This document shows, one piece after another, positions 3,501 through 61,512 of a DNA stretch of 64,000 nucleotides. The stretch is from Luzula sylvatica (Eukaryota > Streptophyta > Magnoliopsida > Poales > Juncaceae). The notes beneath the pieces are model-generated. The model was not told the origin of the DNA. It saw only the letters and a list, made by a program, of their open reading frames with translations, and did no database searches. Location of the stretch: positions 46,649,415 to 46,713,414 of the forward strand of contig OX326961.1 in the NCBI GenBank assembly GCA_946800325.1, written 5' to 3'. Position 1 is the stretch's first letter, and every line of letters starts with the position of its first letter. Position numbers and translations under genes: made by a program.

Positions 3501-4862
3501 GTCGCCAAAGGTTTTACGCAAGAGGAAGGTATTGATTATGACGAGACTTTTAGTCCCGTCGTCAAACCGGCCACAATCCGACTTGTCCTATCCCTCGCCG
3601 CTTCTCATGGATGGTCGGTAAATCAACTCGACGTTAATAATGCGTTTCTCCACGGCGATCTTGCCGAGGCCGTCTACATGAATCAACCACCGGGTTTCCA
3701 AGACTCCTCGTTTCCTTCTCATGTATGCCGTCTTCATAGAGCTTTATATGGCCTTAAACAAGCTCCAAGAGCTTGGTTTACAAAGCTCTCTTCATCGCTT
3801 ATCTCACTCGGTTTTCGAGCATCGAATTCGGATCCATCACTTTTCATTCGGACCCTTGGGTCCGACATCACTTGGCTCTTGATCTATGTCGATGATATTT
3901 TGGTGACGGGAAACAACCAAGCGAACATGGATGCCCTTATTACTTCGCTCCACACTCAATTCTCCCTCAAGAATCTAGGTCCGGTTCACTTTTTCTTGGG
4001 TATTGAATGTGTTCGTACCGCGAATGGTATTTCCCTCTCTCAATCGAATTATATCTCGAAAATTATTTCTCGCGCTAAAATGGATCTTTGCAAGCCATGC
4101 ACTACTCCGATGAAACCGGGTGAAAGTGTCTCCAAATTTCAAGGTTCTCCAATGGAGGACCCTACTCTCTATAGGCGAATTGTCGGTGCACTTCAATACG
4201 CCACGTTCACTCGTCCGGATATATCATTCGTGGTGAACAAGTGTAGCCAATTTATGCATCACCCCTCGGACTATCATTGGAGTCTTGTTAAGCGTATTCT
4301 TCGTTATTTAAAAGGTACGCTTGATCATGGTACCTTTATTCGCTCTTCTAGGGATACTACCTTGCATGCATATTCGGACTCGGATTGGGCCGGTTGCCCC
4401 GATGATCGAAAATCCACTACCGGGTTTTGTATTTTTCTTGGCCCAAACTTGATCTCGTGGTCGTCCAAGAAACAACCCACGGTTTCTCGGTCTAGCACGG
4501 AGGCCGAATACAAGGCCCTTGCATGCGCCACCGGCGAGATAATTTGGCTTCAATTTCTTCTTCGCGAGCTTTCGATCACTCCACCCTCTCTACCGGTACT
4601 TTGGTGTGACAACATTGGTGCCACCTTTCTCGCCTCAAATCCGGTTTTTAGTGCACGCACGAAACACGTTGAGATTGACTATCACTTTGTGAGGGAACGG
4701 ATCTCCAACAAGCAAATTCTAGTAAATTTTATTTGCTCTCGAGACCAACTTGCGGATGGACTCACAAAAGCCTTGCCGGCTCCGCGTTTTTCTTCTCTTC
4801 GTACCAAGCTAACTGTCGAGCGATCTCCGTTGAGCTTGAGGGGGGATGATAGTCTAGTTTAA
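574..4862 (+). pseudogene. copia gag-pol polyprotein with one frameshift in gag
   Basis: The polyprotein starts at ATG 574 in one frame. It moves into the frame of the long 789-4862 ORF across a CT-repeat tract at about 829-842, consistent with one extra CT dinucleotide. Domains in order (residues of the long ORF): CCHC zinc knuckle (about 256-270, C-x2-C-x4-H-x4-C), aspartic protease with DSGA (about 320), integrase with its HHCC and DDE regions (about 450-620), reverse transcriptase with YVDD (about 1033), and RNase H with SDSDWAG and SSTEAEY (about 1195-1300). Everything downstream of the shift is open. The stop codon lies 16 bp inside the 3' LTR. The shift removes the gag N-terminus from the main frame, so this copy is probably non-autonomous unless slippage on the CT run rescues it. 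Confidence 0.9.
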
Positions 4863-37559: not shown

Positions 37560-38040
37560 TGTCTAGTCTACTGCAAAAGCCCTGTAATAAGCGAAATCCC
37601 AGTCCTTCGCTTCACGTGGTTGCTTTCCTCTCTTTCCCTCCTCTCTCCCTCAAAATTTATCGCATTTCTTGCTCCTTTCGATTGAAGTAGTAGAGAGTGG
37701 AAACAGGTATCTAGTAGATCTACATTCGCCACATTGTATTTTTCTTTCTAATTTCTCATGCATTTTTGCTATTTTGTTAGTTTTTCACCTTGTTTTTCTT
37801 ACTTTTTGTGTATTCGAAGGATCACATTTTAGTGTATAAAGAGAAATATTTGTTAATGCTCGAATTCAATGGATTTAGCTTCGATTTTCTTTGATTTTGT
37901 TTTGTTTTCTTCTGTTTATTTTGAATTTGGGTTCTCGGGTTTTGGCTAAGATTTCGCCATTCGTGCTATGAACAGGTGAATAGGAGATCTTACTGAAATT
38001 GTACGTGAACAGCTGTTCTGATTTGGGAGTTTTGAACAAA
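37560..38040 (+). promoter_or_regulatory. 5' UTR with intron, EFR3-like gene A
   Basis: A leader exon ends GGAAACAG at about 37707 before GTATCT. The intron ends TGAACAG at about 37977, and 63 bases of leader precede the ATG. The same structure occurs in copy B (about 56,400-56,900). Confidence 0.55.
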
Positions 38041-41000
38041 ATGGGGATTATATCACGAAAAATATTTCCATCTTGTGGTAACTTGTGTGTTTGCTGCCCT
38101 GCACTTCGTCCAAGCTCACGGCGACCAGTGAAACGGTACAAGAAATTGCTGTCTGAAATCTTCCCCAAAACACAAGTAAATCTCCTTTTCCTTTGTAGTT
38201 ATCCTTTTTCTGGATTTTCTTTGCTCGATTTAGTAAGAATGTGGTAGCATTGTAATTTTGACTATATTCTTCATTGCATGTTAGTTTTTAGTTAGGTATT
38301 TTAGGTTAAATTACTGTCAATATTGCTTATCTTCCAGTTGTATTTCTTTACTGCATTTGTTGGATTGAAACCAGTCCTAAACTCATAATTACATTCATGA
38401 ATCGTTTTTTAAATTCTTTTAACATGAAATTAAATTCGCAGGACGGTGCAGTGAATGAAAGGAAAATCATGAAATTGTGCGAATATGCAGCCAAGAATCC
38501 TCTTCGCATCCCTAAGGTTTCTCCTTCTCTATCTCTGTTTGAGGTTTTATTTTCTGAATTTTTGAATTACTAGTGCAAAATTCGATTTCAAATTCCAAAT
38601 AGATTGCCAAGTTTTTGGAGCAAAGAAGTCACAAGGAGCTTCGATTCGAGCACGTCAACTTTATCAAAATCATCACCGAAGCCTATTCAAAATTGCTCTA
38701 CATTTGCAAGGAACAAATGTAAAATTCTCTTAATTTTTCAATTATACCCCTATATTTTAAAATCCTCTGTCTTTTTGTAGGGCTTATTTCGCAATTAGCC
38801 TTGTAAGCGTGGCGAATGAACTTCTAGAAAGCAAGCATCAAGATATTCAAATCCTCGGTTGCCAAACTCTCACCAAATTCATCTACACTCAGGTTACAAA
38901 TATTCAATTATAACTTATTTTAACATATCATTTTTTATTTTTCATAGATTTTAATTCTTTTTTTTATCCGTGAATAGAATGACAACACATATGCACGTAA
39001 CATAGAGAGGTTAGTGTGCAAAGTTTGCACATTATCTCATGAACATGGTGACAAACAAAGTCTTATTCGCTCAACAAGCTTACAATGCTTATCCTCAATG
39101 GTATAAATTATCAATTATTATTATTCTCCTTTTTTTACTCGCAAAATATATTACTAAATTTACCTTTACATTATTATCTTTCAATTCAGATTTGGTACAT
39201 GACGGAATATTCCTACATGCTCTCCAATTTTGACGCGGTAAATATATTAATTCTATAAATATTAATATTCTTAAAAATTAAAATAAATCTATTAAACCCT
39301 TTGAAATATTTCTGCATTTATATGTATCAGATTATAAATTCCATATTGGAAAATTACCGCAAAGACGAAACTACAAATATTCCTACAAATAATAATAACA
39401 ACAATAATAATAATGTTGAAGAAGAGAGAAACACACCGCAACACAATTGGGTTGATGAGATTGCTCGATGCGAAGGACGAGCCAGCTCAATTGTTTCCGC
39501 TGATGTCAGCCCTAGAAATATAAACACCACTTCTCCAAGACAAACAGACAGGTTGGGGTATTTCTGACAAAATGCTTAAATGTTAGACAAAATAATTTTG
39601 TTATTTTTGTTGGATGGACAGGGAGGAGCAACAGGAGGAGAACCCAGAAGAGTGGGCCCACATCTGCGTGCAAAAACTTGCTGAGCTGGCGAAAGAGAGC
39701 ACAACAATGCGTCTCATCTTGGAACCAATGTTTGCTTTTTTAGATACTAACAAACAGTGGTCCCCACGTCACGGTTTGGCTCTGCTCGTCTTATCTGACT
39801 TGTCTTACTCTGACAAAAACTCAGGTCTGTAATAAATGATATTTGCAAACGGTCCCTGCATTATGCCTAAATTGCATAAAAGCCCTTATATATACCAAAT
39901 AATTATTGCAGGAAATGAGAAGTTGATTCTGACAGCCGTAATTCGTCACTTAGACCATAAAAACATAGCAAGCGATCCACAATTAAAATCAGAAATAGTT
40001 CAGACACTGACATCACTCGCTCGCTCGCTGAGGTCACGCGGCATAAGCGCTGAGCTGGCAGTCGTGAGTGATTTATGCAGACATTTGCGGAAGTGTCTAG
40101 AAGCACTTGTGGAGAGTAATAACGATAACGGTATTGAAGAGTCGAGTTTGAACGAATCTCTTCAGAATTCAATTGAAGATTGCCTTTTAGAGATTGTTAA
40201 AGGGGTAATTAAATAATAGAATACTCTCTCTCTCTCTCTCTCTCCACTTTTTGATAATTCACTAATTATAATTAAAATTTTGAAATACTAGATGAAGGAT
40301 TCAAATGTAATATTTGATATGATGGCGATAACGTTAGAGAAACTTCCTGCATTTAATGCTGTATCGAGAGCTACAATTGGCAGTCTATTAATTCTCTCTC
40401 ACATCCTCTCGTTGACTTCTCTTTCCTCCCAAAATCTCACAGTAAATTTCTCCTATTTTATTTGGAACTTTGCTATTATCCCAAAATAATAATTATAATA
40501 TTTTTGAATGATTTTTTCAGGTTTTTCCAGAAATGTTTCTGATTCAAATACTGAAATCCATGACGCATCCAGATCCAGAAACGAGATTGGGGGCACATTT
40601 GTTATTCTCGTCAGTACTCGTCAGAGCACCACATCATCAAAGAGGGGACTCGGAATATTTATACGAGACCAAGAAATGGCAGTCTAGAACCACGTCAGTC
40701 TTTGCCTCGGCCACTGCACTACTCGAGAAACTCAGGAGAGAGAAAGATAGCTTAACTGGAGACAATAATAATAATAACGCTAAGAATAATGTTAGTTATT
40801 CTAAGGAGAGAGAAAATAAGAATTATTCTGTGTTTTTCGCCAAGTTGGGATTTTCGGTTTGCCAAGAGTTCAGTGCAAATGAAATGGTATGAATATTCAC
40901 AAAGATATATCTTGATTATAAGATTTGTATATATTTATTTTGTTTTGTTTTTGGTTTATTTGAAATAGGAAAATAATATTGTTACGTTGAGCGAAGATCA

Positions 41001-42665
41001 AGTGGGTCAGATATTATCGGTTATATGGATACAAGCAAATCAAGTTGATAATTTGCCTTTTAATTACGAAGCAATTGCTCATTCTTTTAATTTGACTCTT
41101 CTCGCATCTCATCTCAAGGTACAATCTTTTTTTATTGATTAATTTCATTTTTTTAAAATAATTTGCCTTTTAATTACGAAGCAATTGCTCATTCTTTTAA
41201 TAATTAATATCATTTTTTTATTACTGCAGAATTCTAGTAATTGCAATATAACTCGGCTATTTCAGCTTGCTTTCTCTCTCAGAAACACTGCTCTTTCAAC
41301 AAACGGTACAATTTTTTTTATTTTTGCGTTGGTTTTTGTCTTTTAGTGCAAATTTTCTGATTTTTTTTTCTTTGTAGAAAATTTGCCGCCAGCTTGTCAG
41401 AGATCCATTTTCACAATGGCAACGAGCATGCTTGCTATTTGTGGAAAGATATTTAATATTACCGAACTAACCGACTCGATGAAATGTTATTCCTCTCCCA
41501 CTGTAATGTTTCCTTACATAATTTTTTTTTAATTCCTCCAATTCATCAATACATTAATTATTGTTTGTATATAATATATTTTATTTTTTATCAGATTGAC
41601 CCGTATCTAAGAATCGGGGAGGATTTGCAATTATACGTGAGACACCAATCAGATCTAATCAGCTTTGGCTCAGAATCCGATCAAAACGCATCGAGATCCG
41701 TGCTAAACAACTTGAGAGAATCCATTATTCCAAACTCGCAAATAATAAACAGCATTGTAATCTCGCTCTCAACCTCTACCAAAGTAAGTATTTTTTTTTC
41801 TCTTTTCAGTATTTGATGAATTATTGTTTGATTTTATTTTGGTTTGATATATTTTTATTAGTTGGACAAGGATGTGTTATCTAGCGCATGTAATGAGAGT
41901 TTCGTGCCTGACGAGGTGCCCTTGTTTGGATCCAATGCAGTTTTTGACTGGGCCTTTTCAGAAGAATCTCTCTCCTTAGACGAGGTATTTTAAAAACTTT
42001 ATATAGATAAAATAAACAAATTTTTAATTTTATTTCTTATATTTTATCGGGACATGGAAATAGGAGTGTTCGAGGACTTCTTCGGTTGATGGAGGAATTA
42101 CAGCCAATGAAACGCCAGCTGTCAGTTTCCCTCAGCCGCCTCTTCCTCACGTCATTAGTGTCGGCCAATTACTCCAATCAGTATGCCTTCTTTTATCCTT
42201 AACCCCTTAAATTCATCTTTTAATTTCGTAATTTGTAATAAACTAATAATACTTTTTGTTTCTTTTTTGAAGGCCTTGCATGTGGCTGGACAGGTGGCAG
42301 GTACGTCCGTGTCCACATCTCCTCTCCCGTATGGCACGATGGCGAGTCAGTGCGAGGCACTGGGCATGGGCTCGAGAAAGAAACTCTCGAGCTGGTTGAC
42401 TAATGGCTATGATTCCTCTGAAGATGCTAACTTGCCAGATCTCAACTCTCATATTGCTCTTCAAAAGGTATCGTATCCCAAGTTTTCTAAATTTGAACAC
42501 CTTGAATATTAAGTTCAGTATGCTAATAGATATGATGATATTATATAGGTAAATTCGTACTCGTCCAGTGAGATGGATATGTTTGTTCCGTCAGAGCCGT
42601 GGAGGGCACTTCGACTTCCTCCGGCAAGTCCTTTCGATAACTTCTTGAAGGCAGCACATTGTTAG
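38041..42665 (+). CDS. EFOP: EFR3-like protein (EFOP / SEMI-ROLLED LEAF 2 family), copy A
   Basis: Nineteen coding exons: 38041-38175, 38442-38516, 38603-38718, 38781-38892, 38978-39100, 39191-39238, 39331-39551, 39622-39824, 39912-40204, 40292-40441, 40521-40886, 40969-41118, 41230-41305, 41378-41502, 41595-41783, 41862-41984, 42064-42180, 42273-42467, 42549-42665. The spliced frame is open for about 977 residues. The N-terminus has a Cys cluster (CGNLCVCCPALR) followed by basic residues, the likely S-acylated membrane anchor. The body is ARM/HEAT-like helical repeats. The family forms the plasma-membrane scaffold that recruits PI4-kinase alpha for PI4P synthesis. Exon 7 ends at a GTTGGG donor, where copy B has GTAGGG. 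Intron 12 contains a stray copy of part of exon 12. Confidence 0.88.
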
Positions 42666-42981: not shown

Positions 42982-43330
42982 TTACTTGGCCATCATGACC
43001 TTGATGAAATCTCGTAGTTGATTTGGCCGTCGCCGTTCACGTTAGATTCACGGATCATCTCGTCGACCTCCTCGCCGGTGAGCTTCTTGCCACGATTGGT
43101 CATTCATGACGTGGCAGAATTCTGCGACGGAGATGAAACCGTTCTGTTCCTTGTCGAAGACCCGGAACGCCTCCTTGAGCTCCTCCTCTGAGTTCGTATC
43201 CTTCATTTTGCGAGCCATCAAGTTGAAAATCGATCGTTCCGTTACCGTCTGCCTCAACTTCGTTTATCATGTCTTGAAGCTCCTTGAGCTCCTCCTCTGA
43301 GTTCGTGTCCTTCACTGCCAGCGATTCAGT
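42982..43330 (-). pseudogene. Calmodulin pseudogene
   Basis: The minus strand encodes calmodulin pieces: [51 protein letters not shown] and a terminal MMAK stop. They fall in different frames with deletions, and the order is rearranged: a second SEEELKE copy joins [20 protein letters not shown]-hand loops are partly present. No full-length frame exists, so it is a decayed C-lobe copy. It sits just downstream of EFR3-like copy A, in opposite orientation. Confidence 0.85.
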
Positions 43331-44054
43331 AGCATGTTTTGGTTGGTCTCCATTATAGATTTTACAAATGTACAACAATACGCACACGGCATGTAAAGTC
43401 CACATGCAGCCATCGACGCCGGAAATCCCACGTGCAGTCATCGACGTAGTTGTTGTTTTCGTATATCTCGGATGTAGATTGTATGAAGTTAATTACTCCA
43501 TTTAAAATCTCGAGAGTAAATATTTTCCAATATTCTAGGTAAAGTAATGCGGTTGCGTTTACCGCAACTGAGAATAAGTTGAATAATTTAATTGCCAAAG
43601 GCAATATATGGACGGAACCCGCACTTATCTCCAAATAAACAATATATGAGTTGAATGCCAAGAACCATGTCAGTACTATGTAATCCGCAAATTCGCCGTA
43701 TTCTCTAAGATAGATTATGAAGTAAATGACATATATCACCAAATTAAAAAAGGGGAATTCCTAAAAAACCCCCTAACTTTTTTGGGATTCCTCAAAAACC
43801 CCCTAACTTTTTGATTATTTGAAAAACCCCCTAGAAATCTAATTTAATTCTTGAAAAACCCCCTACAAAGGTTAACATTAACATTCCATCCAATTATTAT
43901 TTTTCTGGACAAAAATACCCTTCTTGATTTTCATTTATAAATTCTTTTATTCAATACAAATTAATAAATACATAAATAAATTAAATATTTCATGATAAAT
44001 ATTTCACGTTATTATAATTAAAAATAATTTATGATAATATTTTACAACTCATTA

Positions 44055-44059
<5 letters not shown>

Positions 44060-44121
<62 letters not shown>
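44060..44121. repeat. (TA)n microsatellite
   Basis: TA runs flank both FAR1-type MULEs: here, 47799-47838, 47904-47931 and 51609-51666. Confidence 0.95.
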
Positions 44122-44124
<3 letters not shown>

Positions 44125-47100
44125 TTTGGCTAGGACGCTATTAATAGCACGAGAGAGTTTAATACTATTAATTTTTAAACCGTCAGATTCCCATTCAGAT
44201 TAAGATTTGATGATCAAACATGCAATGGATGGAAACTTAACACCACCGTTTATTTCTTTCATATTAGGAAAATTAATATTGCATACACTCCTATTCCCAG
44301 ATATTATTTGACCGCATTAAATAAGGAAATAGTATATTGCACTTGATTGCACCAAATAATTCATTCATGTATTTCTAATTCTTATGATTCATAAGTTATG
44401 AATAACTTCAAGAACTTGTTGTCGGTTCATTATTAATTCACAGATTTTTCAGACTATTATAAAATTTGATTGTTATGATCTTTTGTAGTGTTTGGGATTA
44501 TAAATTTGATGCTAGACAAATGTACCATAACTGATTTTAATAAAGAAAAATATTAATTGGAAGTTCCATCTAAACATCGAACTCATATAAATTGAAAAAT
44601 ATTCATTCTCAGGACATACATGATTCTAAAATTTTGAAGAGTGCAACAAAAGAAAAATACAACCAGCAGATTCATACGCAATACATCATGAAACATTAAA
44701 TAAAATCAAGATACAAAATAGTTCCTACAAATACTACATATTAAGCATTTTCGAAACTTGTACATCTTTTAAGCTCTTCCCTGAAAAAAAATAATTACAT
44801 GTTAGATTAGAACTCACTTATAACCTAAAATTGAAAATATTGAAAATTGTAAATATGTCATTACCTCCTTGCAAGTTGTGAAATAGTGACCCAACTTTCC
44901 ACATTTTCTTTGCTTTCTCTCAGATTGTGGCTTCCATCGTTGTGCTTTTCTTTTACCCTTGCATTGCGATTCTGGAGGATCTTTAGGTGTAATTACCTCT
45001 CTAACTTCTTGCTTTTTATTCACAATATCGTTTCCTCCAGAGCTTTCCGTTTCCTCATTTATGTTCTCGTTCAACTTTTTCATCGATTCATTGAATATTG
45101 CAATTTCATCCGTAATTGTATCTATCCGCGTAGAAGTCATTTCAAATGCTTCGAAATTGTGTGATCCTTGTGACACTAATTTCATAACCTTTGAACTTAA
45201 AATTTTGAAACGCAATGCCTTAGATTCCAATGATTCACCCATTAATACACTTCGGGTACTCGATGCCATTGACTCCCCTTTTGCATTTTTGGTCCATCTT
45301 GTTAAGATATAACGAGATGGAATAGAATGCATGTTTACATGATTCATTACCTTCAAAACATGAGGACATAATAAGCCTTCAAACTCAAACTTCTTGCAAT
45401 TACACGAAATTATGGATTTGGATTCATTAACCTCAACGATATATGAAAGCATCCGTTGATTGCAAATGAAAGGATTATGTATGGTCCTTACATTGAATAC
45501 CAATGGATTCTCCATCTCGAACACATTGTAACCAGAACTAGTTTGTAATGATTCTTTGAATTCCGAGAAGATATTTCTTGTATATGCCTCACGAGCTTGA
45601 AATTCGATTGGATCGCGCGAACACAATGATGCTTTTCCATCGATTGTTCGATAGTCCTCCTCATCTTCTCTGGCAAAGCGACTTTCGAGGATCTTCTCAA
45701 AACGAATTACAAATGTATATATCGATTCTTGGCAATCCATCCATATTTTAATCAAGGCATTCATACTCTCACTTCTTTGTGACGATGACATGCCCGCGAA
45801 AAACGTATCACGAAAAAATGCCGGAACCCATTGTGCACGGCATTTATTTTAATCCATATTTTAATCCATCCATGTTTTAAATGGGTATTATCATCTATTT
45901 CATGCTTAACAATCATTTCTTTCCAATTACTATCAAATTCGTCAATTGTTAAACTGTCATCAATGCATGACTTAAATTCATCTTCAAACCCCACTTTGTC
46001 ATGATAAAACACACTTAAATGTTCTCTTGCTTTTCGCATTATGTGCCATTCACAACACCTGTGTATTGTATTTGGAAACACATCTGCAATTGCTTTCTTC
46101 ATTGCCAAATCTTGATCTGTGATTATTGCTTTTGGATGAACACCTGACATTGCTTCAAGCCATGTTCTAAATAACCAACAAAAGCTATCAGCTTTCTCAT
46201 CTCTAATCAGAGCGCACCCAAAAAAAATTGATTGCCAGTGATGATTTACCCCTATGAAAGGAGCAAACGGCATGCTATATTTATTGGTCATGTACGTTGT
46301 ATCGAACGTTATTACATCTCCAAAGTTCTTGTATGCCACTCTCGACCTTCCATCAATCCAAAAGATATAGCGTGCCGCCCCTTCATCGTCGAAATTTATT
46401 TTCGAATAGAAAAGAGGATCGGTAGCTTTTCGTTCTTCAAAATATGCGAGCGTGGTTGCTACATCAAGCCCGACAAGTTTCTGTTTTCTTTTTGCAATCT
46501 CATTATTTAAATCTTTTTGAACGAAGGAAAGATTCTGGGACCCTCCCTCTCTTGCAGCCAAGAAAGCCATAATTTGGGTAGTGGGTATATTTTGTTCTCT
46601 TAGCAAGTGTATTAACACTTTTTGTTCTTCGGTTATTGTTCGGTAAGATCTGCAGTATCGCATTTTAGAGGGACTAGCTATCAAACTATGGTTATGCTTT
46701 GTTTCGCATTTGGTTATCCTCCATTTGCCATCAGTTTCTAGTTTCACCCTTATGTAAGCTTTGCAATCGGTTCGACGGTGGTGCACATTTTTTTGTGGTG
46801 TCCCTATTATTTGCGGTGTTTCGACGTTTTTTCTTTGACCTTTTGAATCAGTTTTTCCTTGTTTCGAACAACACAACAGCCAAGCAGTAATCATGTTATC
46901 TTTCTTTCTTGCCTTGTAGTGGCTAGCCTTTCTGACAGAGAATCCGGTTTTAAAAGCATAAACAGTGTAAAATTTAATTGCTTCTTCTCCACTTTCAAAT
47001 TCCATCCCTACAAATGGCAAATCAATCGTTGTCTCAAGTTCAACTTCACATGTTTGTTGATTATGATATGCACTCGTAAAGTCATATTCCTGGTCACTAC

Positions 47101-47795
47101 TGTTGGGGTTATGCATCTCTTCTCCATCAGTAGAAACTTCAATCAAATGTTCCTGCAAGTTCATATTTGATTTCCATCTTAGGAGGCAAGACCAAATTGA
47201 CAAAATAGACATAATTGAAAAGTGAGCCCTACACATGTTAAGCAACGAAAAAGTGCAATACCTCTCCTAAGAACGGTGGAATATTATCACTCAAACTAGA
47301 AGAAGCTCTAATAACCATGATGAATTAAGATGGATGTGCAGTGTATTTCTTTTACGATATTGGATTTTAAGATTGTTGAAAAATAAGAACAAGAGCCTAT
47401 TAGAAAGATGATTTATGTATTTCCTAATTTAATAGTTTGAAAAATCTGTAAATATTAGATTTTATAATATTTCTTTCTAATCAATAATTTATAAATTAAA
47501 TATAGGATATCCATACATTAATAATTTTCTTAATGAAAGAATTAGAAATACATGAATGAATTATTTGGTGCAATCAAGTGCAATGTTCTATTTCCTTATT
47601 TAATGCGGTCAAATAATATCTGGGAATAGGAATGTATGCAATATTAATTTTCCTAATATGAAAGAAATAAACGGTGGTGTTAAGTTTCCATCCATTGCAT
47701 GTTTGATCATCAAATCTTAATCTGAATGGGAATCTGACGGTTTAAAAATTAATAGTATTAAACTCTCTCGTGCTATTAATAGCGTCCTAGCCAAA

Positions 47796-47798
<3 letters not shown>
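44122..47798 (-). mobile_element. FAR1-type Mutator-like element, copy 1 (minus)
   Basis: 3,677 bp. The ends are GAGTTTGGCTAGGACGC and its inverse, GCGTCCTAGCCAAACTC. The inverted repeats extend about 262 bp, with only a few mismatches (for example CACTCC versus CATTCC). Inside is one transposase gene reading leftward. The element sits in a TA run, so its target duplication (probably TATATATAT) cannot be delimited. Position x here pairs with 95,730 - x in copy 2, and I saw no difference between them. Confidence 0.9.
44769..47318 (-). pseudogene. FAR1/FHY3-like MULE transposase, copy 1, with frameshift
   Basis: Model: exon 1 47318-47262; exon 2 from 47152 to a frameshift near 45,840-45,880; continuing in a second frame to 44865; last exon 44780-44769. 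Domains in order: FAR1 zinc-finger DNA-binding domain (F-x-SGEEAIKFY to CETKHNHS), MULE DDE domain (FDTTYMTNKY, then IITDQDLAM, then CCEWHIMRKA), the FFAGMSSSQRSESMN block, SWIM finger (CNCKKFEFEGLLCPH) and a C-terminal knuckle-like CGKLGHYFTTC lacking its first Cys. The shift lies at a short internal duplication (GGATTAAAATAT twice) just before WVPAFF. The protein cuts and pastes the element in autonomous relatives; here it is probably inactive. Confidence 0.85.
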
Positions 47799-47845
<47 letters not shown>

Positions 47846-47931
47846 TTAATGTAAAAATAAAAAATGCAATGTGAAATAGTATTTATTTAATAATAATAAT
47901 ACTATATATATATATATATAGTATATATATA

Positions 47932-50900
47932 GAGTTTGGCTAGGACGCTATTAATAGCACGAGAGAGTTTAATACTATTAATTTTTAAACCGTCAGATTC
48001 CCATTCAGATTAAGATTTGATGATCAAACATGCAATGGATGGAAACTTAACACCACCGTTTATTTCTTTCATATTAGGAAAATTAATATTGCATACATTC
48101 CTATTCCCAGATATTATTTGACCGCATTAAATAAGGAAATAGAACATTGCACTTGATTGCACCAAATAATTCATTCATGTATTTCTAATTCTTTCATTAA
48201 GAAAATTATTAATGTATGGATATCCTATATTTAATTTATAAATTATTGATTAGAAAGAAATATTATAAAATCTAATATTTACAGATTTTTCAAACTATTA
48301 AATTAGGAAATACATAAATCATCTTTCTAATAGGCTCTTGTTCTTATTTTTCAACAATCTTAAAATCCAATATCGTAAAAGAAATACACTGCACATCCAT
48401 CTTAATTCATCATGGTTATTAGAGCTTCTTCTAGTTTGAGTGATAATATTCCACCGTTCTTAGGAGAGGTATTGCACTTTTTCGTTGCTTAACATGTGTA
48501 GGGCTCACTTTTCAATTATGTCTATTTTGTCAATTTGGTCTTGCCTCCTAAGATGGAAATCAAATATGAACTTGCAGGAACATTTGATTGAAGTTTCTAC
48601 TGATGGAGAAGAGATGCATAACCCCAACAGTAGTGACCAGGAATATGACTTTACGAGTGCATATCATAATCAACAAACATGTGAAGTTGAACTTGAGACA
48701 ACGATTGATTTGCCATTTGTAGGGATGGAATTTGAAAGTGGAGAAGAAGCAATTAAATTTTACACTGTTTATGCTTTTAAAACCGGATTCTCTGTCAGAA
48801 AGGCTAGCCACTACAAGGCAAGAAAGAAAGATAACATGATTACTGCTTGGCTGTTGTGTTGTTCGAAACAAGGAAAAACTGATTCAAAAGGTCAAAGAAA
48901 AAACGTCGAAACACCGCAAATAATAGGGACACCACAAAAAAATGTGCACCACCGTCGAACCGATTGCAAAGCTTACATAAGGGTGAAACTAGAAACTGAT
49001 GGCAAATGGAGGATAACCAAATGCGAAACAAAGCATAACCATAGTTTGATAGCTAGTCCCTCTAAAATGCGATACTGCAGATCTTACCGAACAATAACCG
49101 AAGAACAAAAAGTGTTAATACACTTGCTAAGAGAACAAAATATACCCACTACCCAAATTATGGCTTTCTTGGCTGCAAGAGAGGGAGGGTCCCAGAATCT
49201 TTCCTTCGTTCAAAAAGATTTAAATAATGAGATTGCAAAAAGAAAACAGAAACTTGTCGGGCTTGATGTAGCAACCACGCTCGCATATTTTGAAGAACGA
49301 AAAGCTACCGATCCTCTTTTCTATTCGAAAATAAATTTCGACGATGAAGGGGCGGCACGCTATATCTTTTGGATTGATGGAAGGTCGAGAGTGGCATACA
49401 AGAACTTTGGAGATGTAATAACGTTCGATACAACGTACATGACCAATAAATATAGCATGCCGTTTGCTCCTTTCATAGGGGTAAATCATCACTGGCAATC
49501 AATTTTTTTTGGGTGCGCTCTGATTAGAGATGAGAAAGCTGATAGCTTTTGTTGGTTATTTAGAACATGGCTTGAAGCAATGTCAGGTGTTCATCCAAAA
49601 GCAATAATCACAGATCAAGATTTGGCAATGAAGAAAGCAATTGCAGATGTGTTTCCAAATACAATACACAGGTGTTGTGAATGGCACATAATGCGAAAAG
49701 CAAGAGAACATTTAAGTGTGTTTTATCATGACAAAGTGGGGTTTGAAGATGAATTTAAGTCATGCATTGATGACAGTTTAACAATTGACGAATTTGATAG
49801 TAATTGGAAAGAAATGATTGTTAAGCATGAAATAGATGATAATACCCATTTAAAACATGGATGGATTAAAATATGGATTAAAATAAATGCCGTGCACAAT
49901 GGGTTCCGGCATTTTTTCGTGATACGTTTTTCGCGGGCATGTCATCGTCACAAAGAAGTGAGAGTATGAATGCCTTGATTAAAATATGGATGGATTGCCA
50001 AGAATCGATATATACATTTGTAATTCGTTTTGAGAAGATCCTCGAAAGTCGCTTTGCCAGAGAAGATGAGGAGGACTATCGAACAATCGATGGAAAAGCA
50101 TCATTGTGTTCGCGCGATCCAATCGAATTTCAAGCTCGTGAGGCATATACAAGAAATATCTTCTCGGAATTCAAAGAATCATTACAAACTAGTTCTGGTT
50201 ACAATGTGTTCGAGATGGAGAATCCATTGGTATTCAATGTAAGGACCATACATAATCCTTTCATTTGCAATCAACGGATGCTTTCATATATCGTTGAGGT
50301 TAATGAATCCAAATCCATAATTTCGTGTAATTGCAAGAAGTTTGAGTTTGAAGGCTTATTATGTCCTCATGTTTTGAAGGTAATGAATCATGTAAACATG
50401 CATTCTATTCCATCTCGTTATATCTTAACAAGATGGACCAAAAATGCAAAAGGGGAGTCAATGGCATCGAGTACCCGAAGTGTATTAATGGGTGAATCAT
50501 TGGAATCTAAGGCATTGCGTTTCAAAATTTTAAGTTCAAAGGTTATGAAATTAGTGTCACAAGGATCACACAATTTCGAAGCATTTGAAATGACTTCTAC
50601 GCGGATAGATACAATTACGGATGAAATTGCAATATTCAATGAATCGATGAAAAAGTTGAACGAGAACATAAATGAGGAAACGGAAAGCTCTGGAGGAAAC
50701 GATATTGTGAATAAAAAGCAAGAAGTTAGAGAGGTAATTACACCTAAAGATCCTCCAGAATCGCAATGCAAGGGTAAAAGAAAAGCACAACGATGGAAGC
50801 CACAATCTGAGAGAAAGCAAAGAAAATGTGGAAAGTTGGGTCACTATTTCACAACTTGCAAGGAGGTAATGACATATTTACAATTTTCAATATTTTCAAT

Positions 50901-51605
50901 TTTAGGTTATAAGTGAGTTCTAATCTAACATGTAATTATTTTTTTTCAGGGAAGAGCTTAAAAGATGTACAAGTTTCGAAAATGCTTAATATGTAGTATT
51001 TGTAGGAACTATTTTGTATCTTGATTTTATTTAATGTTTCATGATGTATTGCGTATGAATCTGCTGGTTGTATTTTTCTTTTGTTGCACTCTTCAAAATT
51101 TTAGAATCATGTATGTCCTGAGAATGAATATTTTTCAATTTATATGAGTTCGATGTTTAGATGGAACTTCCAATTAATATTTTTCTTTATTAAAATCAGT
51201 TATGGTACATTTGTCTAGCATCAAATTTATAATCCCAAACACTACAAAAGATCATAACAATCAAATTTTATAATAGTCTGAAAAATCTGTGAATTAATAA
51301 TGAACCGACAACAAGTTCTTGAAGTTATTCATAACTTATGAATCATAAGAATTAGAAATACATGAATGAATTATTTGGTGCAATCAAGTGCAATATACTA
51401 TTTCCTTATTTAATGCGGTCAAATAATATCTGGGAATAGGAGTGTATGCAATATTAATTTTCCTAATATGAAAGAAATAAACGGTGGTGTTAAGTTTCCA
51501 TCCATTGCATGTTTGATCATCAAATCTTAATCTGAATGGGAATCTGACGGTTTAAAAATTAATAGTATTAAACTCTCTCGTGCTATTAATAGCGTCCTAG
51601 CCAAA

Positions 51606-51608
<3 letters not shown>
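47932..51608 (+). mobile_element. FAR1-type Mutator-like element, copy 2 (plus)
   Basis: Mirror image of copy 1, 133 bp away, with the same ends and a TA-run target. It sits at the centre of the foldback element: the sequences just outside each end are inverses of each other (47,840-47,905 and 51,666-51,735). Confidence 0.9.
48412..50961 (+). pseudogene. FAR1/FHY3-like MULE transposase, copy 2, with the same frameshift
   Basis: Exon 1 48412-48468 (MVIRASSSLS); exon 2 from 48578 to the shift near 49,850-49,890; second frame to 50865; final exon 50950-50961. Junctions are GT..AG and phase 0. The first exon is preferred over the longer upstream frame, which would start on a non-ATG codon. Domains and the frameshift are identical to copy 1. 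The two genes are divergent, with start regions about 1.1 kb apart and their 3' ends pointing outward. Confidence 0.85.
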
Positions 51609-51669
<61 letters not shown>

Positions 51670-52035
51670 TTATTATTATTAAATAAATACTATTTCACAT
51701 TGCATTTTTTATTTTTACATTAAATAATTTTATATAAAACTCATATAATAAATAGAGAATAATATAATAAATATCATGATATAATATTATGAAATATTAT
51801 ATTGTAAAATATTATGTATTTATTAATTTATAGAATAAATTCAATTATAAATTGTGAGGGTATTTTGGTCCAAAAAAGAATAATTAGGATGGAAAATGAA
51901 AAATAACACTATTAGGGGGTTTTTCAAGAATTAAAATTAAGTTATAGGGGGTTTTTCAAAAAATCTAAAAGTTAGGGGGTTTTTGAGAAATCCCAAAAAA
52001 GATAGGGGGTTTTTGAAGAATTCCCCATTAAAAAA

Positions 52036-53651
52036 ACTTGACATGGTCATTTTGTGCAATTCGTTCACAACTGTTGCAAATGTCAGACAAGCACATACCA
52101 ATGATATGTTGTTTTGTTTTCGGTCGAAATGTTTTGAGTTACATCTGAGAGCCCTAATCATCCCAACAGAGTTCAATACAGAACTAATCCAAACTAAAAA
52201 AAGTTAAAACATCAAAATTCAGATTTCAATAACCAAAAAAATAAATATTATTAATTCAATAAAATACAAAAACTACCTATCATTACACAGACATCCATAA
52301 GCCTCGAGACATCCATAATCCTCGACCAAAAAGACATTGAAAGTATAATCGTAATACTCGACCAAAAAGACAGTGATTCGAAAGTATAATTGTAATACTC
52401 GACCAAAAAGACAGTGAATCGAATAATTGTATTAATTAATTAAAAATGTTCTATTTATTATACTTTCTTGTAATTACCTAAAATTACAGAATGCAGCTAT
52501 TGAAACTTGAAAGCTCACCATGAATTCACGTCCACATAATACAATTACAATTACACTCTGTTAGAACTACTTGTTGAAATACACCTAATTAATTCACGTC
52601 CACATACAATTACACAATCCGTTAGAACTTCTTGTTGAAACACACGTAATTGATAACGTTCCCTACACCAATAAAGTTACCCGCCATACAATTAACACAT
52701 GTAATGGATGGACAAATTAGTTTTAACCCGTTTAAATAAACAATACCTCAACCCGTTTAGCGTGTAAATGGAACCAAGAGAAATAGGAAAGAATCGCCCC
52801 TCTTTTCCTGACGTGTTTCTCTCTCCTAACCCGTTTAGCGCCTCTCTACCGGTCCGCATCTGCCGTTTGTACAAAGTTTTACTCTGTTTTTGCTGCAGTC
52901 ACATGAATACTCTGTTTTTGTTTTGTTTCTATTTTTATTTTTGTAGTTTGAAAACCTAATAAGTGCGTATTAATTATATTGATAATATCAATATACATTT
53001 GATATTTTTTTTCATTTTGCATAGATGGAGATCGTAAATTCCTTGGAAATTAATGATGGTGAAGAACACGATCACAGTACTGTAGTCGAGATCAAAGACT
53101 GGCTTGATCATAAATTAGATATATTTCTTATTAGTTCTTTGCACGACAATAATTCATATTCAATGGCACAATCTCATATTATTTCAAATGAAAATCACGC
53201 ACTACATGATCAATGAGTTCCCCGCTCATGCATACCAATTGCCAGAATAACGTTCTCAAGGCCTAGTAGTTAAAATGAGGAATTTTGTATACTCAATTTC
53301 AATTCGTAATGTTTTCAATACACGATAGGTAAAAAAAAAGATCATGAATTCGAAAAGTACGAAGAGAAGTCATACCGTAAACCTTCGCTCGAAGAAGATT
53401 AGCGATCTTTGCAATGAGAAGAGCTACAAAGCCAATGTAGTATTGGCACTTGATTCGGAAATTCACTCACTGAATCAAGATAAAACAATCAAACAAATAA
53501 GAACATAATCCTTGCAATTCGAAAATTAGTACATTTCCCCTCTTTAATCTATACCTTTCTCGATCCATCTTCTGCATCTTCTTCCCTATTCCCTATTCTG
53601 CATTACAAATATTCAAATTTCCAAGTTTAAAAAATTCAAAATTTTAAGTTC
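52036..53651. other. Region between the foldback element and the GAUT fragment
   Basis: Contains the 5' part of the split membrane ORF (to 52161), short repeats of CGACCAAAAAGACA (52,320-52,410) and of AATTCACGTCCACATA (52,510-52,610), and a small plus ORF at 53025-53216 (acidic, starts MEIVNSLEIND, preceded by an AG acceptor-like site) that I do not recognise. Confidence 0.4.
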
Positions 53652-56390: not shown

Positions 56391-56900
56391 ATTAACAGAG
56401 AGATGGAAGGTGTCAGGGTGACAGTGTCTGCTGCAAAAGCTCTGTAATAAGCGAAATCCCAGTCCTTTGCTTCACGTGGTTGCTTTCCTCTCTTTTCCTC
56501 CTCTCTCCTCAAAATTTCTCGAAATTCTTGCTTCTTTGGATTGAAGTAGTAGAGAGTCGAAACAGGTATCTAGTAGATCTACATTCACCGCATTGTATTT
56601 TTTTTTTAATTTCTCATGCATTTTTGCTATTTTGTTAGTTTTTCACCTTGATTTTCTTACTTTTGTTTGTATATTCGGAGGATCACATTTTAGTGTTTAA
56701 AGAGTAATATTTGTTAATGCTCGAATTCAGCGGATTTAGCGTCGATTTTCTTGGATTATGTTTTATTTTTTCTGTTTATTTTGAATTTGGGTTCTCGGGT
56801 TTTGGCTAAGATTTCGCCATTCGTGCTATGAACAGGTGAATAGGAGATCTTACTGAAATTGTACGTGAACAGCTGTTCTGATTTGGGAGTTTTGAACAAA

Positions 56901-59900
56901 ATGGGGATTATATCACGAAAAATATTTCCATCTTGTGGTAAATTGTGTGTTTGCTGCCCTGCACTTCGTCCAAGCTCACGGCGACCAGTGAAACGGTACA
57001 AGAAATTGCTGTCTGAAATCTTCCCTAAAACACAAGTAAATCTCCTTTCCCATTGTAGTTATCCTTTTTGTGGATTTTCTTTGCTCGATTTAGTAAGAAT
57101 GTAGTAGCATTGTGATTTTTACTATATATTCATCGAATGTTAGGTTTTAGTTTGGTATTTTAGGTTAAATTACTGTCAATATTGCTTATCTTCCAGTTGT
57201 ATTTCTTTACTGCATTCGTTGGATTGAAACCAGTCATAAAATTGTAATTAAATTCATGAATCATTTTGTTAAAGTCTTTTAACATGAAATTTCGCAGGAT
57301 GGTCCAGTGAATGAAAGGAAAATCATGAAATTGTGCGAATATGCAGCCAAGAATCCTCTTCGCATACCTAAGGTTTATCTCTCTCTCTCACTATATCTCT
57401 GTTTGAGGTTTTATTTTCTGAATTTTTGAATTACTAGTCTAAAATTTGATTTCAAATTCCAAATAGATTGCCAAATTTTTGGAGCAAAGGAGTCACAAGG
57501 AGCTTCGATTCGAGCACGTCAACTTTATCAAAATAATCACCGAAGCCTATTCAAAATTGCTCTACATTTGCAAGGAACAAATGTAAATTCCTCCTAATTT
57601 CTCAATTATACCCCTCTATTTTTAAAATCCTCTTTCTTTTTGTAGGGCTTATTTCGCAATTAGCCTTGTGAGCGTGGCCAATGAGCTTCTAGAAAGCAAG
57701 CATCAAGATATTCAAATCCTCGGTTGCCAAACTCTCACCAAATTCATCTACACTCAGGTTACAAATATTCAATTATAACTTATTTAATTTAATATATCAT
57801 TTTTTATTTTTTTTCAATATATTTTAATTTCTTTTTTATCGTGAATAGAATGACAACACATATGCACGTAACATAGAGAGGTTAGTGTGCAAAGTTTGCA
57901 CATTATCTCATGAACATGGTGACAAACAAAGTCTTATTCGCTCAACAAGCTTGCAATGCTTATCCTCAATGGTATAAATTATCAATTATTATTATTCTCC
58001 TTTTTTACTCGCAAAATATAATATTATATTTACCTTCACATTATTATCTTTCAATTCAGATTTGGTACACGACAGAATATTCCTACATGTTCTCCGATTT
58101 TGACGCCGTAAATAAATTAATTCTATAAATATTAATATTCTTAAAATAAATCTATTAAACCCTTTGAAATATTTTTGCATTTATATGTATCAGATTATCA
58201 ATTCCATATTGGAAAATTACCGCAAAGACGAAACTACAAATACTCCTACAAATAATAACAACAATAATAATAACGTTGAAGAAGAGAGAAACACACCGCA
58301 ACACAATTGGGTTGACGAGATTGCTCGATGCGAAGGACGAGCCAGCTCAATTGTTTCCGCTGATGTCAGCCCTAGAAATATAAACACCACTTCTCCAAGA
58401 CAAACAGACAGGTAGGGGTATTTCTGGCAAAATGCTTAAATGTTAGACAAAATAATTTTGTTATTTTTTGATGGAGGGACAGGGAGGAGCAACAGGAGGA
58501 AAACCCAGAAGAGTGGGCCCAGATCTGCGTGCAAAAACTTGCTGAGCTGGCGAAAGAGAGCACAACAATGCGTCTCATCTTGGAACCAATGTTTGCTTTT
58601 TTGGATACTAACAAACAGTGGTCCCCACGTCACGGTTTGGCTCTGCTCGTCTTATCTGACTTGTCTTACTCCGACAAAAACTCAGGTCTGTAATAAATGA
58701 TATTTGCAAACGGTCCCTGCATTATGCCTAAATTGCATAAAAGTCCTTATAAATACCAAATAATTATTGCAGGAAATGAGAAGTTGATACTGACGGCTGT
58801 AATTCGTCACTTAGACCATAAAAACATAGCAAGTGATCCACAATTAAAATCAGATATAGTTCAGATGCTGACATCACTCGCTCGCTCGCTGAGGTCACGC
58901 GGCATAAGCGCTGAGCTGGCAGTCGTCAGCGATTTATGCAGACATTTGCGGAAGTGTCTAGAAGCACTTGTGGAGAGTAATAACGATAACGGTATTGAAG
59001 AGTCGAGCTTGAATGAATCTCTTCAGAATTCAATTGAAGATTGCCTTTTAGAGATTGTTAAAGGGGTAATTAAATAATTAAATACTTTCTCTCTCCACTT
59101 TTTGATAATTCACTAATTACGATTAAAATTTTGTAATACTAGATGAAGGATTCAAATGTAATATATGATATTATGGCGATAACGTTAGAGAAACTTCCTG
59201 CATTTAATGCTGTATCGAGAGCTACAATTGGCAGTCTATTGATTCTCTCTCACATCCTCTCGTTGACTTCTCTGTCCTCCCAAAAGCTCACAGTAAATTT
59301 CTCTATTTTTATTTTCGAACTTTGCTATTATCCCAAAATAATAATTATAATATTTTGAAATGATTTTTTCAGGTTTTTCCAGAAATGTTTCTGATTCAAA
59401 TACTGAAATCCATGACGCATCCAGATCCAGAAACGAGATTGGGGGCACATTTGTTATTCTCGTCAGTACTCGTCAGAGCACCACATCATCAGAGAGGGGA
59501 CTCGGAATATTTATACGAGACCAAGAAATGGCAGTCTAGAACCACGTCAGTCTTTGCCTCGGCCACTGCACTACTCGAGAAACTCAGGAGAGAGAAAGAT
59601 AGCTTAACTGGAGACAATAATAATAATAACGCTAAGAATAATGTTAGTTATTCTAAGGAGAGAGAAAATAAGAATTATTCTGTGTTTTTCGCCAAGTTGG
59701 GATTTTCGGTTTGCCAAGAGTTCAGTGCAAATGAAATGGTATGAATATTCACAAAGATATAATATCTTGATTATAAGATTTGTATATATTTATTTTGTTT
59801 TGTTTTTGGTTTATTTGAAATAGGAAAATAGTATTGTTATGTTGAGCGAAGATCAAGTGGGTCAGATATTATCGGTTATATGGATACAAGCAAATCAAGT

Positions 59901-61512
59901 TGATAATTTGCCTTTTAATTACGAAGCAATTGCTCATTCTTTTAATTTGACTCTTCTCGCATCTCATCTTAAGGTACAAAATAAAAAAAATATTCTACTA
60001 TTTATTTTTCTATTATTAAAATTCATATTCATATCTTACATTCAATAATTAACTTCATTTCTTATTATTACAGAATTCGAGTAATTGCAATATAGCTCGG
60101 CTATTTCAGCTTGCCTTCTCTCTCAGAAACATTGCTCTTTCAACAAACGGTACACATTTTTTATTTTTGCGTTGGGTTTTGTCTTTTAGTGCAAATTTTC
60201 TGATTTTTTGTTTTGTAGAAAATTTGCCGCCAGCCTGTCAGAGATCCATTTTCACAATAGCAACGAGCATGCTTGCTATTTGTGGAAAGATATTTAATAT
60301 TACCGAACTAACCGACTCGATGAAATGTTATTCCTCTCTCACTGTAATGTTTCCTTACAAACTTTTTTTTAATTTTTCCAATTAATCAATACATTAATTG
60401 TTGCTAGTATATAATATATTTTATTTTTCAACAGATTGACCCGTATCTAAGAATTGGGGAAGATTTTCAATTATATGTAAACGTGAGACACCAATCAGAT
60501 CTAATCAGCTTTGGATCAGAATCCGATCAAAACGCATCGAGATCCGTGCTAAACAACTTGAGAGAATCCATTATTCCAAACTCGCAAATAATAAACAGCA
60601 TTGTAATCACGCTCTCAACCTCTACCAAAGTAAGTATTTTTTTTTCTCTTTTCAGTATTTGATGAATTATTGTTTGATTTTATTTTGGTTTGATATATAT
60701 TTTATTAGTTGGACAAGGATGTGTTATCTAGCGCATGTAATGAGAGTTTCGTGCCTGACGAGGTGCCCTTGTTTGGATCCAATGCAGTTTTTGACTGGGC
60801 CTTTTCAGAAGAATCTCTCTCCTTAGACGAGGTATTTTAAAAACTTTATATAGATAAAATAAACAAATTTTTAATTTTATTTCTTATATTTTATCGGGAC
60901 ATGGAAATAGGAGTGTTCGAGGACTTCTTCGGTTGATGGAGGAATTACAGCCAATGAAACGCCAGCTGTCAGTTTCCCTCAGCCGCCTCTTCCTCACGTC
61001 ATTAGTGTCGGCCAATTACTCCAATCAGTATGCCTTCTTTTATCCTTAACCCCTTAAATTCATCTTTTAATTTCGTAATTTGTAATAAACTAATAATACT
61101 TTTTGTTTCTTTTTTGAAGGCCTTGCATGTGGCTGGACAGGTGGCAGGTACGTCCGTGTCCACATCTCCTCTCCCGTATGGCACGATGGCGAGTCAGTGC
61201 GAGGCACTGGGCATGGGCTCGAGAAAGAAACTCTCGAGCTGGTTGACTAATGGCTATGATTCCTCTGAAGATGCTAATTTGCCAGATCTCAACTCTCATA
61301 TTGCTCTTCAAAAGGTATCGTATCCAAAGTTTTCTAAATTTGAACACCTTGCATATTAAGTTCAGTATGCTAATAGATATGATGATATTATATAGGTAAA
61401 TTCGTACTCGTCCAGTGAGATGGATATGTTTGTTCCGTCAGAGCCGTGGAGGGCACTTCGACTTCCTCCGGCAAGTCCTTTCGATAACTTCTTGAAGGCA
61501 GCACATTGTTAG
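56901..61512 (+). CDS. EFOP: EFR3-like protein (EFOP / SEMI-ROLLED LEAF 2 family), copy B
   Basis: Nineteen coding exons: 56901-57035, 57298-57372, 57467-57582, 57646-57757, 57849-57971, 58060-58107, 58194-58411, 58483-58685, 58773-59065, 59143-59292, 59373-59738, 59824-59973, 60074-60149, 60219-60343, 60435-60629, 60709-60831, 60911-61027, 61120-61314, 61396-61512. About 978 residues with no disruptions, so both paralogues appear functional. Compared with copy A it loses one Asn in exon 7 and gains two residues in exon 15 (in-frame GTAAAC after LYV), plus scattered substitutions. The N-terminal Cys cluster and the C-terminal PFDNFLKAAHC are kept. From intron 15 to the stop the two copies are almost identical even in introns. 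Confidence 0.88.

Follow-up and report, generated by a model that had tools for sequence, protein, structure and literature searches.

In the genome of Luzula sylvatica (445.35 Mb), we analyzed a stretch of 64,000 nucleotides placed at C6:46649415-46713414 (contig OX326961.1; hereafter the window), and made genome-wide searches for copies of the elements found there. The window carries two copies of a Mutator-like element (MULE) in mirror orientation, referred to as arm A and arm A' (Table 1), which together make up a perfect mirror image of 7.5 kb. Arm A is the exact reverse complement of arm A' over 3,677/3,677 bases, and the gap between the arms is 133 bp. This agrees with the original prediction of two opposite and identical 3,677-bp MULEs separated by 133 bp, as we found 0/3,677 differences between them. 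With the TA tracts counted in, the mirror match grows to 3,745 bases (44064-47808 vs 47922-51666). Chance is excluded as the source of such a pair. The terminal inverted repeats (TIRs) of arm A differ by three mismatches over the 262 bases compared.

The locus is comprised of, in this order, the left arm of an outer element, a TA tract, arm A, a TA tract, an inverted copy of a right-flank segment designated R1, a TA tract, arm A', a TA tract, R1 itself, and the remaining right arm of the outer element. The 133-bp spacer thus consists of (TA)17, 70 bp of inverted R1, and a 29-base TA tract with a single interruption. The R1 copy matches its source at 70/70 positions, and at 88/88 positions when the neighboring TA is included. 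The DNA folding of the spacer (z -2.8) was put down to TA hairpins and left unused as evidence.

Table 1. Features of the mirror pair, of the outer element that carries it, and of the open reading frame split by the outer element (positions in the window)
Feature	Position	Strand	Basis or remark
Downstream part of the split frame, 129 codons	43365..43751	-	no Pfam match
Left target-site duplication of the outer element, ATTAAAAAA	43743..43751	.	identical to 52027-52035
Left arm of the outer non-autonomous TIR element	43752..44057	+	inverted match to the right arm
(TA)32 tract left of arm A	44058..44121	.	sequence
Arm A, 3,677-bp FAR1-type TA-targeting MULE, transposase leftwards	44122..47798	-	exact reverse complement of A'
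Transposase part 2 in A (SWIM)	44814..45848	-	Pfam on the identical A' frame
Transposase part 1 in A (FAR1 + MULE)	45761..47266	-	Pfam on the identical A' frame
20-bp insertion private to the A lineage, element positions 1727-1746, mirrored in A'	45848..45867	.	absent from 7/7 copies
(TA)17, first novel junction; with the TATATA of the R1 copy, pure TA to 47838	47799..47832	.	
Inverted copy of the right-flank segment R1 (51667-51736)	47833..47902	-	70/70 identical
TA tract with one interruption, left of arm A'	47903..47931	.	29 bases
Arm A', inverted MULE copy, transposase rightwards	47932..51608	+	exact reverse complement of A
Transposase part 1 in A' (FAR1 + MULE)	48464..49969	+	Pfam
Transposase part 2 in A' (SWIM)	49882..50916	+	Pfam
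(TA)29, second novel junction	51609..51666	.	sequence
R1, right-flank segment, ends in TATATA	51667..51736	+	source of the inverted spacer copy
Remaining right arm of the outer element	51737..52026	+	sibling comparison
Right target-site duplication of the outer element, ATTAAAAAA	52027..52035	.	identical to 43743-43751
Upstream part of the split frame, 56 codons	52036..52203	-	no recognised family

The mirror pair sits in the (TA)n center of an older TIR element (43752-52026), which is flanked by the 9-bp target duplication ATTAAAAAA and for that reason is called MULE-like here. Its ends form an inverted match of 83% (43749-43921 and 51857-52029). A genome search with its right part yielded 40 scored copies, the one in the window included, from 2,034 candidates, and 19 of the 39 other copies were examined. 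All 19 siblings contain the left arm, the center, and the right arm in that order, and a 62-base R1 probe matches exactly once in each of these outer elements. The left arm in the window is 91-99% identical to the left arms of 18 siblings and 88% identical to that of L042. Most sibling centers are TA tracts; L041 has a GA stretch, L038 a degenerate tract, and the centers of L042 and L043 consist of other sequence. In L043 (C1, ~29.3 Mb), two tandem TA-flanked elements of ~560 bp lie inside the TA center of the sibling, resembling a SaTar array. The TA centers of the outer element thus act as landing sites.

By their predicted FAR1 (1.4e-19), MULE transposase (4.4e-31), and SWIM (6.8e-7) domains, found with Pfam in the frames of A' that are identical in A, the two arms are assigned to the FAR1/Jittery-type MULEs. 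The best named homologues of the transposase are FAR1-RELATED SEQUENCE proteins from Ananas (pineapple), Carex, and Rhynchospora. The transposase gene is frameshifted in both arms, the frame of A being split into 501 and 344 codons; the FAR1 and MULE domains fall into the first half of the split frame, and SWIM into the second. The break coincides with the 20-bp insertion, which was not found in the seven other copies aligned. Hence the mirror pair cannot encode an intact transposase. Two other copies, L011 and L012, have one uninterrupted 813-codon frame each. The insertion is a local near-repeat (GGATTAAAATAT-GGATTAAA, coding strand) among clustered substitutions and is perhaps an older repair scar; its siting at a TATATA was checked and dropped.

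To characterize the family, we searched the genome with a 401-bp end probe, which gave 43 matches (53 candidates, 40 scored), and aligned A with its seven closest relatives, namely the truncated L009 and L010, and L011 to L015. Both arms share ten substitutions, a 9-bp deletion, and the 20-bp insertion, none of which is seen in the seven other copies, one of the sites being comparable in only five copies as two are truncated there. Three of the ten substitutions lie next to the insertion and could be part of it. No third copy of the A lineage was found among the seven aligned copies, the only ones checked. The nearest other copy differs from A at 17/3,657 positions, and the closest other pair at distinct places, L011 and L012, has 11/3,666 differences, compared to 0/3,677 between the arms. 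In addition, L009 (C10) and L010 (C8) lie on small contigs with a common 9.7-kb stretch that is more than 99.5% identical and holds the same truncated MULE; the two element sequences are identical, and the contigs are a possible unpurged duplicate.

TA tracts flank A, A', L011, L012, and L014, as well as the one flank that remains in the truncated L009/L010. The left flank of L013 is a mixture of GA and TA, and L015 lies in short TA. Target duplications are hidden by the TA repeats in most copies; L015 has the short duplication TATATATAAC on either side. Insertion in (TA)n microsatellites, a feature of MuTAnT-like elements, is therefore observed in this family.

We consider it probable that a single MuTAnT-like MULE underwent inverted duplication through gap repair or template switching primed by the self-complementary (TA)n. 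A single FAR1/Jittery-type TA-targeting MULE would have inserted in the (TA)n center of the older, common TIR element. A later DNA copying error would then have produced an inverted copy of the MULE together with the adjoining (TA)n and 70 bp of the right flank, and this copy would have come to lie between the MULE and the flank segment. The likeliest route would be repair of the gap left by MULE excision, with the sister chromatid as the template, or template switching of a replication fork at the TA tracts. From the left side, the MULE would have been copied normally, while the right side would have paired with an incorrect (TA)n tract, and copying from there would have run back through the MULE and on into R1 up to its TATATA, where the ends were joined. 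Since the reverse complement of (TA)n is again (TA)n, an end that breaks or stalls within it can prime synthesis either way. The copied flank stops at 51731-51736, which is the only TATATA within the 371-bp right arm (51667-52037), and the longest and nearest of the twelve TA runs of at least 4 nt in that arm; thus both novel junctions run from TA to TA. The assembly directly shows the final anatomy, the exact match of the arms, the duplicated R1, and the microhomology at TA, and from these we infer the order of events and the part played by gap repair or fork switching.

Small inverted triplications, which include inverted copies, have reportedly been linked to replication errors in cancer genomes and yeast. 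Assuming 7e-9 changes per site and year, the 0/3,677 differences would date the duplication to within some tens of thousands of years, barring gene conversion. In animals, gap filling guided by microhomology, together with template switching, has been described at TIR elements (PMC8277862). Our literature searches listed no direct report of inverted MULE pairs arising from gap repair or from template switching at TA, and we do not claim that such pairs are absent from print.

Several points weigh against this origin. The pair is known from the assembled sequence. Gene conversion between the arms could erase differences, and so identity by itself gives no date; moreover, the private changes on their own are compatible with local transposition of A. 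One of the four TA tracts (47903-47931) is interrupted, and the other three are not. Gap repair, fork switching, re-integration of a circle, and end-bypass transposition all predict the same product. Finally, reading through the coordinates of the 43 genome matches, we saw no second facing pair of family elements, and the pair is a single case among them.

As for the function of the pair, a transcript crossing the whole locus would fold into a hairpin with a perfect 3.7-kb stem, which bears out the original prediction of a very long hairpin. The same prediction held that small interfering RNAs (siRNAs) would target every relative of the element, and this part could hold for the close copies and fails for the distant ones. 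Each of the seven closest copies (L009-L015) contains 64-93% of the 21-mers of the arm, while in the nine relatives further removed (L016-L024) the share never exceeds 2.3%, so that the silencing potential reaches the close copies and not every relative. The transposase frames (47266-44814 on the minus strand and 48464-50916 on the plus strand) read outward, with the 5' ends towards the spacer. Therefore, their own promoters would not make the hairpin, and another source of the transcript is needed. The candidates are the outer TIR, which could act as an inward promoter given that the TIRs of an element are near-identical, the 185-codon minus-strand frame interrupted by the outer element, and read-through from an EFR3-like gene on the left. 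We thus regard the pair as a latent hairpin locus; silencing of close relatives would require a transcript that enters from outside or from the outer TIR.

With one target duplication kept, the 185-codon minus-strand open reading frame spans the empty site of the outer element; of 922 control points placed elsewhere in the window, 33 attain the same length, including some that fall in real exons. Pfam found no domain above the cut-off in either half (best SH3_17, E 0.05), and no homologues of the left 126 codons were retrieved (eight candidates, none with E <= 0.001; the joined frame was not searched). Hence, of the proposed split host ORF, the frame across the junction is present and no family is recognized in it, so that the suggested host promoter would depend on a frame in which Pfam detects nothing above the cut-off. 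The EFR3-like gene, on the plus strand, is tandemly duplicated (37700-42600 and 56600-61440, ~18.85 kb apart), with the MULE pair between the copies; the duplicate blocks listed are 93-100% identical. Its left copy, which we take from our reading of the open frames to end near 42512, would probably end ~1.6 kb leftward of the pair. The name rests on one exon-like frame, for which one of 81 matches is named EFR3, while most are unnamed and two bear unrelated names.

Other features in the window include a calmodulin-like EF-hand remnant on the minus strand (43048-43263; Pfam EF-hand_1, 2.9e-9), a second fragment with a weak EF-hand match close to it, and a 1,362-codon open frame at 774-4862 encoding a Copia-type retrotransposon polyprotein (Pfam RVT_2, rve).

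The locus had been likened to maize Mu killer. According to PMC3440606, both TIRs of Mu killer come from the mudrA-adjacent end, each half running from TIRA into mudrA, and the genes point inward; its center could not be sequenced in one study. The same source describes antisense RNA that starts inside Mu killer in plants silencing MuDR and read-through sense transcripts in two plants that failed to silence, and its authors reject read-through from a flanking gene as the source of the antisense RNA. Similar to Mu killer as described there, the locus in L. sylvatica contains an inverted duplication of a MULE transposase gene from which a hairpin RNA is possible, and to this extent the comparison holds. 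It does not extend to topology. Mu killer is a partial duplication with ~1.3 kb of mudrA per half (PMC3440606), while both elements here are full length and frameshifted, and have their genes pointing outward, so that the outer TIRs are not those of the transposase-promoter end. To work like Mu killer, the locus would need a crossing transcript.

A functional silencer of this kind, whose hairpin RNA keeps the family quiet through siRNAs, would be compatible with the proposed duplication via (TA)n. The perfect 3.7-kb arms and their 21-mers in each of L009-L015 speak for it, as do the possible inward promoter in the outer TIR, the minus-strand frame reading into the locus, and the nearby end of the EFR3-like gene. 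Yet we find it unlikely, as the transposases diverge outward in the opposite way to Mu killer, L011 and L012 retain their 813-codon frames, and the distant relatives L016-L024 share no more than 2.3% of the 21-mers.

Turning from function back to origin, the arms could also stem from two separate insertions, if the MULE, or its copy from the sister chromatid, re-inserted in the opposite orientation in the neighboring TA tract, as in SaTar arrays. The family is found in TA tracts, arrays formed by adjacent insertion of MULEs in microsatellites are described in the relevant sections of PMC5907723, and the tandem elements of L043 lie within a sibling of the outer element itself. Moreover, local transposition of A would also carry the private changes along, and for this reason we do not take the identity of the arms and their shared changes as proof of copying in place. 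However, a plain second insertion of the MULE cannot bring the inverted copy of R1, a stretch that is single in 19/19 siblings examined, and it leaves unexplained why the copy ends just where the right arm has its only TATATA. Two independent insertions were rejected on these grounds as the principal explanation, and we consider them quite improbable.

Just as improbable, in our estimation, is a product of an excised circle, comprised of the MULE, (TA), and R1, that re-integrated in (TA)n by homologous recombination, or of end-bypass transposition with TATATA as a false end. A circular intermediate with microsatellite filler is proposed for SaTars in the part of PMC5907723 that discusses their formation, and an end-bypass model for TIR elements is mentioned in PMC8277862. 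Both routes need extra steps, and the end of R1, judged by eye, is unlike the TIR (GAGTTTGGCTAGG).

Perfect palindromes are a known failure mode of assembly, and here the assembly was used without examining the reads. Still, an artefact that doubled one MULE (a fold-back, a read with a missed adapter, or a mis-join) is unlikely and the least probable of these accounts, since the assembly was made from 33-fold HiFi data with Hi-C and has a quality value (QV) of 59.9 (PMC11380069), the TA tracts are of unequal length with one interrupted, and one would not expect a palindrome from a missed adapter to break off at the borders of elements and TA repeats, or to skip R1 between A and the turn and then re-enter the unique right flank.

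Inverted duplication of the MULE via (TA)n, the origin we favor, can be compared with several known systems. MuTAnT and AutoMuTAnT of Medicago truncatula, in the available part of their description (PMC4486113), target (TA)n, produce 9-nt duplications outside perfect TA, and encode a Jittery-like transposase. The family in L. sylvatica has the same (TA)n preference and the same type of transposase, and its TIR (GAGTTTGGCTAGGACG) resembles, by eye and with no Medicago sequence aligned, the MuTAnT search motif GGGGTTTGCTAGAACA (PMC4486113). By contrast, the AutoMuTAnT transposase has five exons, while L011 and L012 contain one 813-codon frame each, and that part of the MuTAnT account reports one putative autonomous copy and describes no inverted full-length pair (PMC4486113).

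Like the SaTar arrays of guayule and rice, as outlined in the corresponding sections of PMC5907723, the locus has MULEs side by side, joined by microsatellites. SaTars, however, are small and non-autonomous, and unrelated elements are combined in their arrays (PMC5907723), while here the same full-size element is exactly inverted, and the spacer, rather than being only microsatellite, holds the 70-bp inverted copy of the flank. The Pack-TIRs resemble our case in that template switching at short homology makes duplications at a TIR element, in the account given in part by PMC8277862. They are found in animals and capture other genomic sequence inside the element, while in L. sylvatica the element and its flank were apparently copied inverted, with switches in (TA)n.

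A more general proposition, which we put forward very tentatively and hold to be rather unlikely, is that life in (TA)n predisposes TA-targeting MULEs to back-to-front copying during repair of excision gaps, because priming from the flanking repeat works both ways, and thereby repeatedly spawns perfect hairpin loci directed against the family itself. If this were true, such families would have a built-in route to self-silencing, and the locus described here would be a fresh, fully resolved example in which the copied flank can be read. It would also predict that inverted pairs with junctions in TA runs are more common at TA-flanked MULEs than at MULEs elsewhere.

The birth of natural hairpin silencers is hard to see. 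In this locus, the assembly resolves the two arms, the spacer, and both junctions, and one can see from the copied flank how the inverted pair came about. Pending read-level confirmation, we regard the locus as an inverted duplication of a TA-targeting MULE that is cleanly resolved and whose origin can be read, and as a silencer that is latent, not demonstrated. Transcription of the pair, if it occurs, would connect the choice of target site in this family with its self-silencing.

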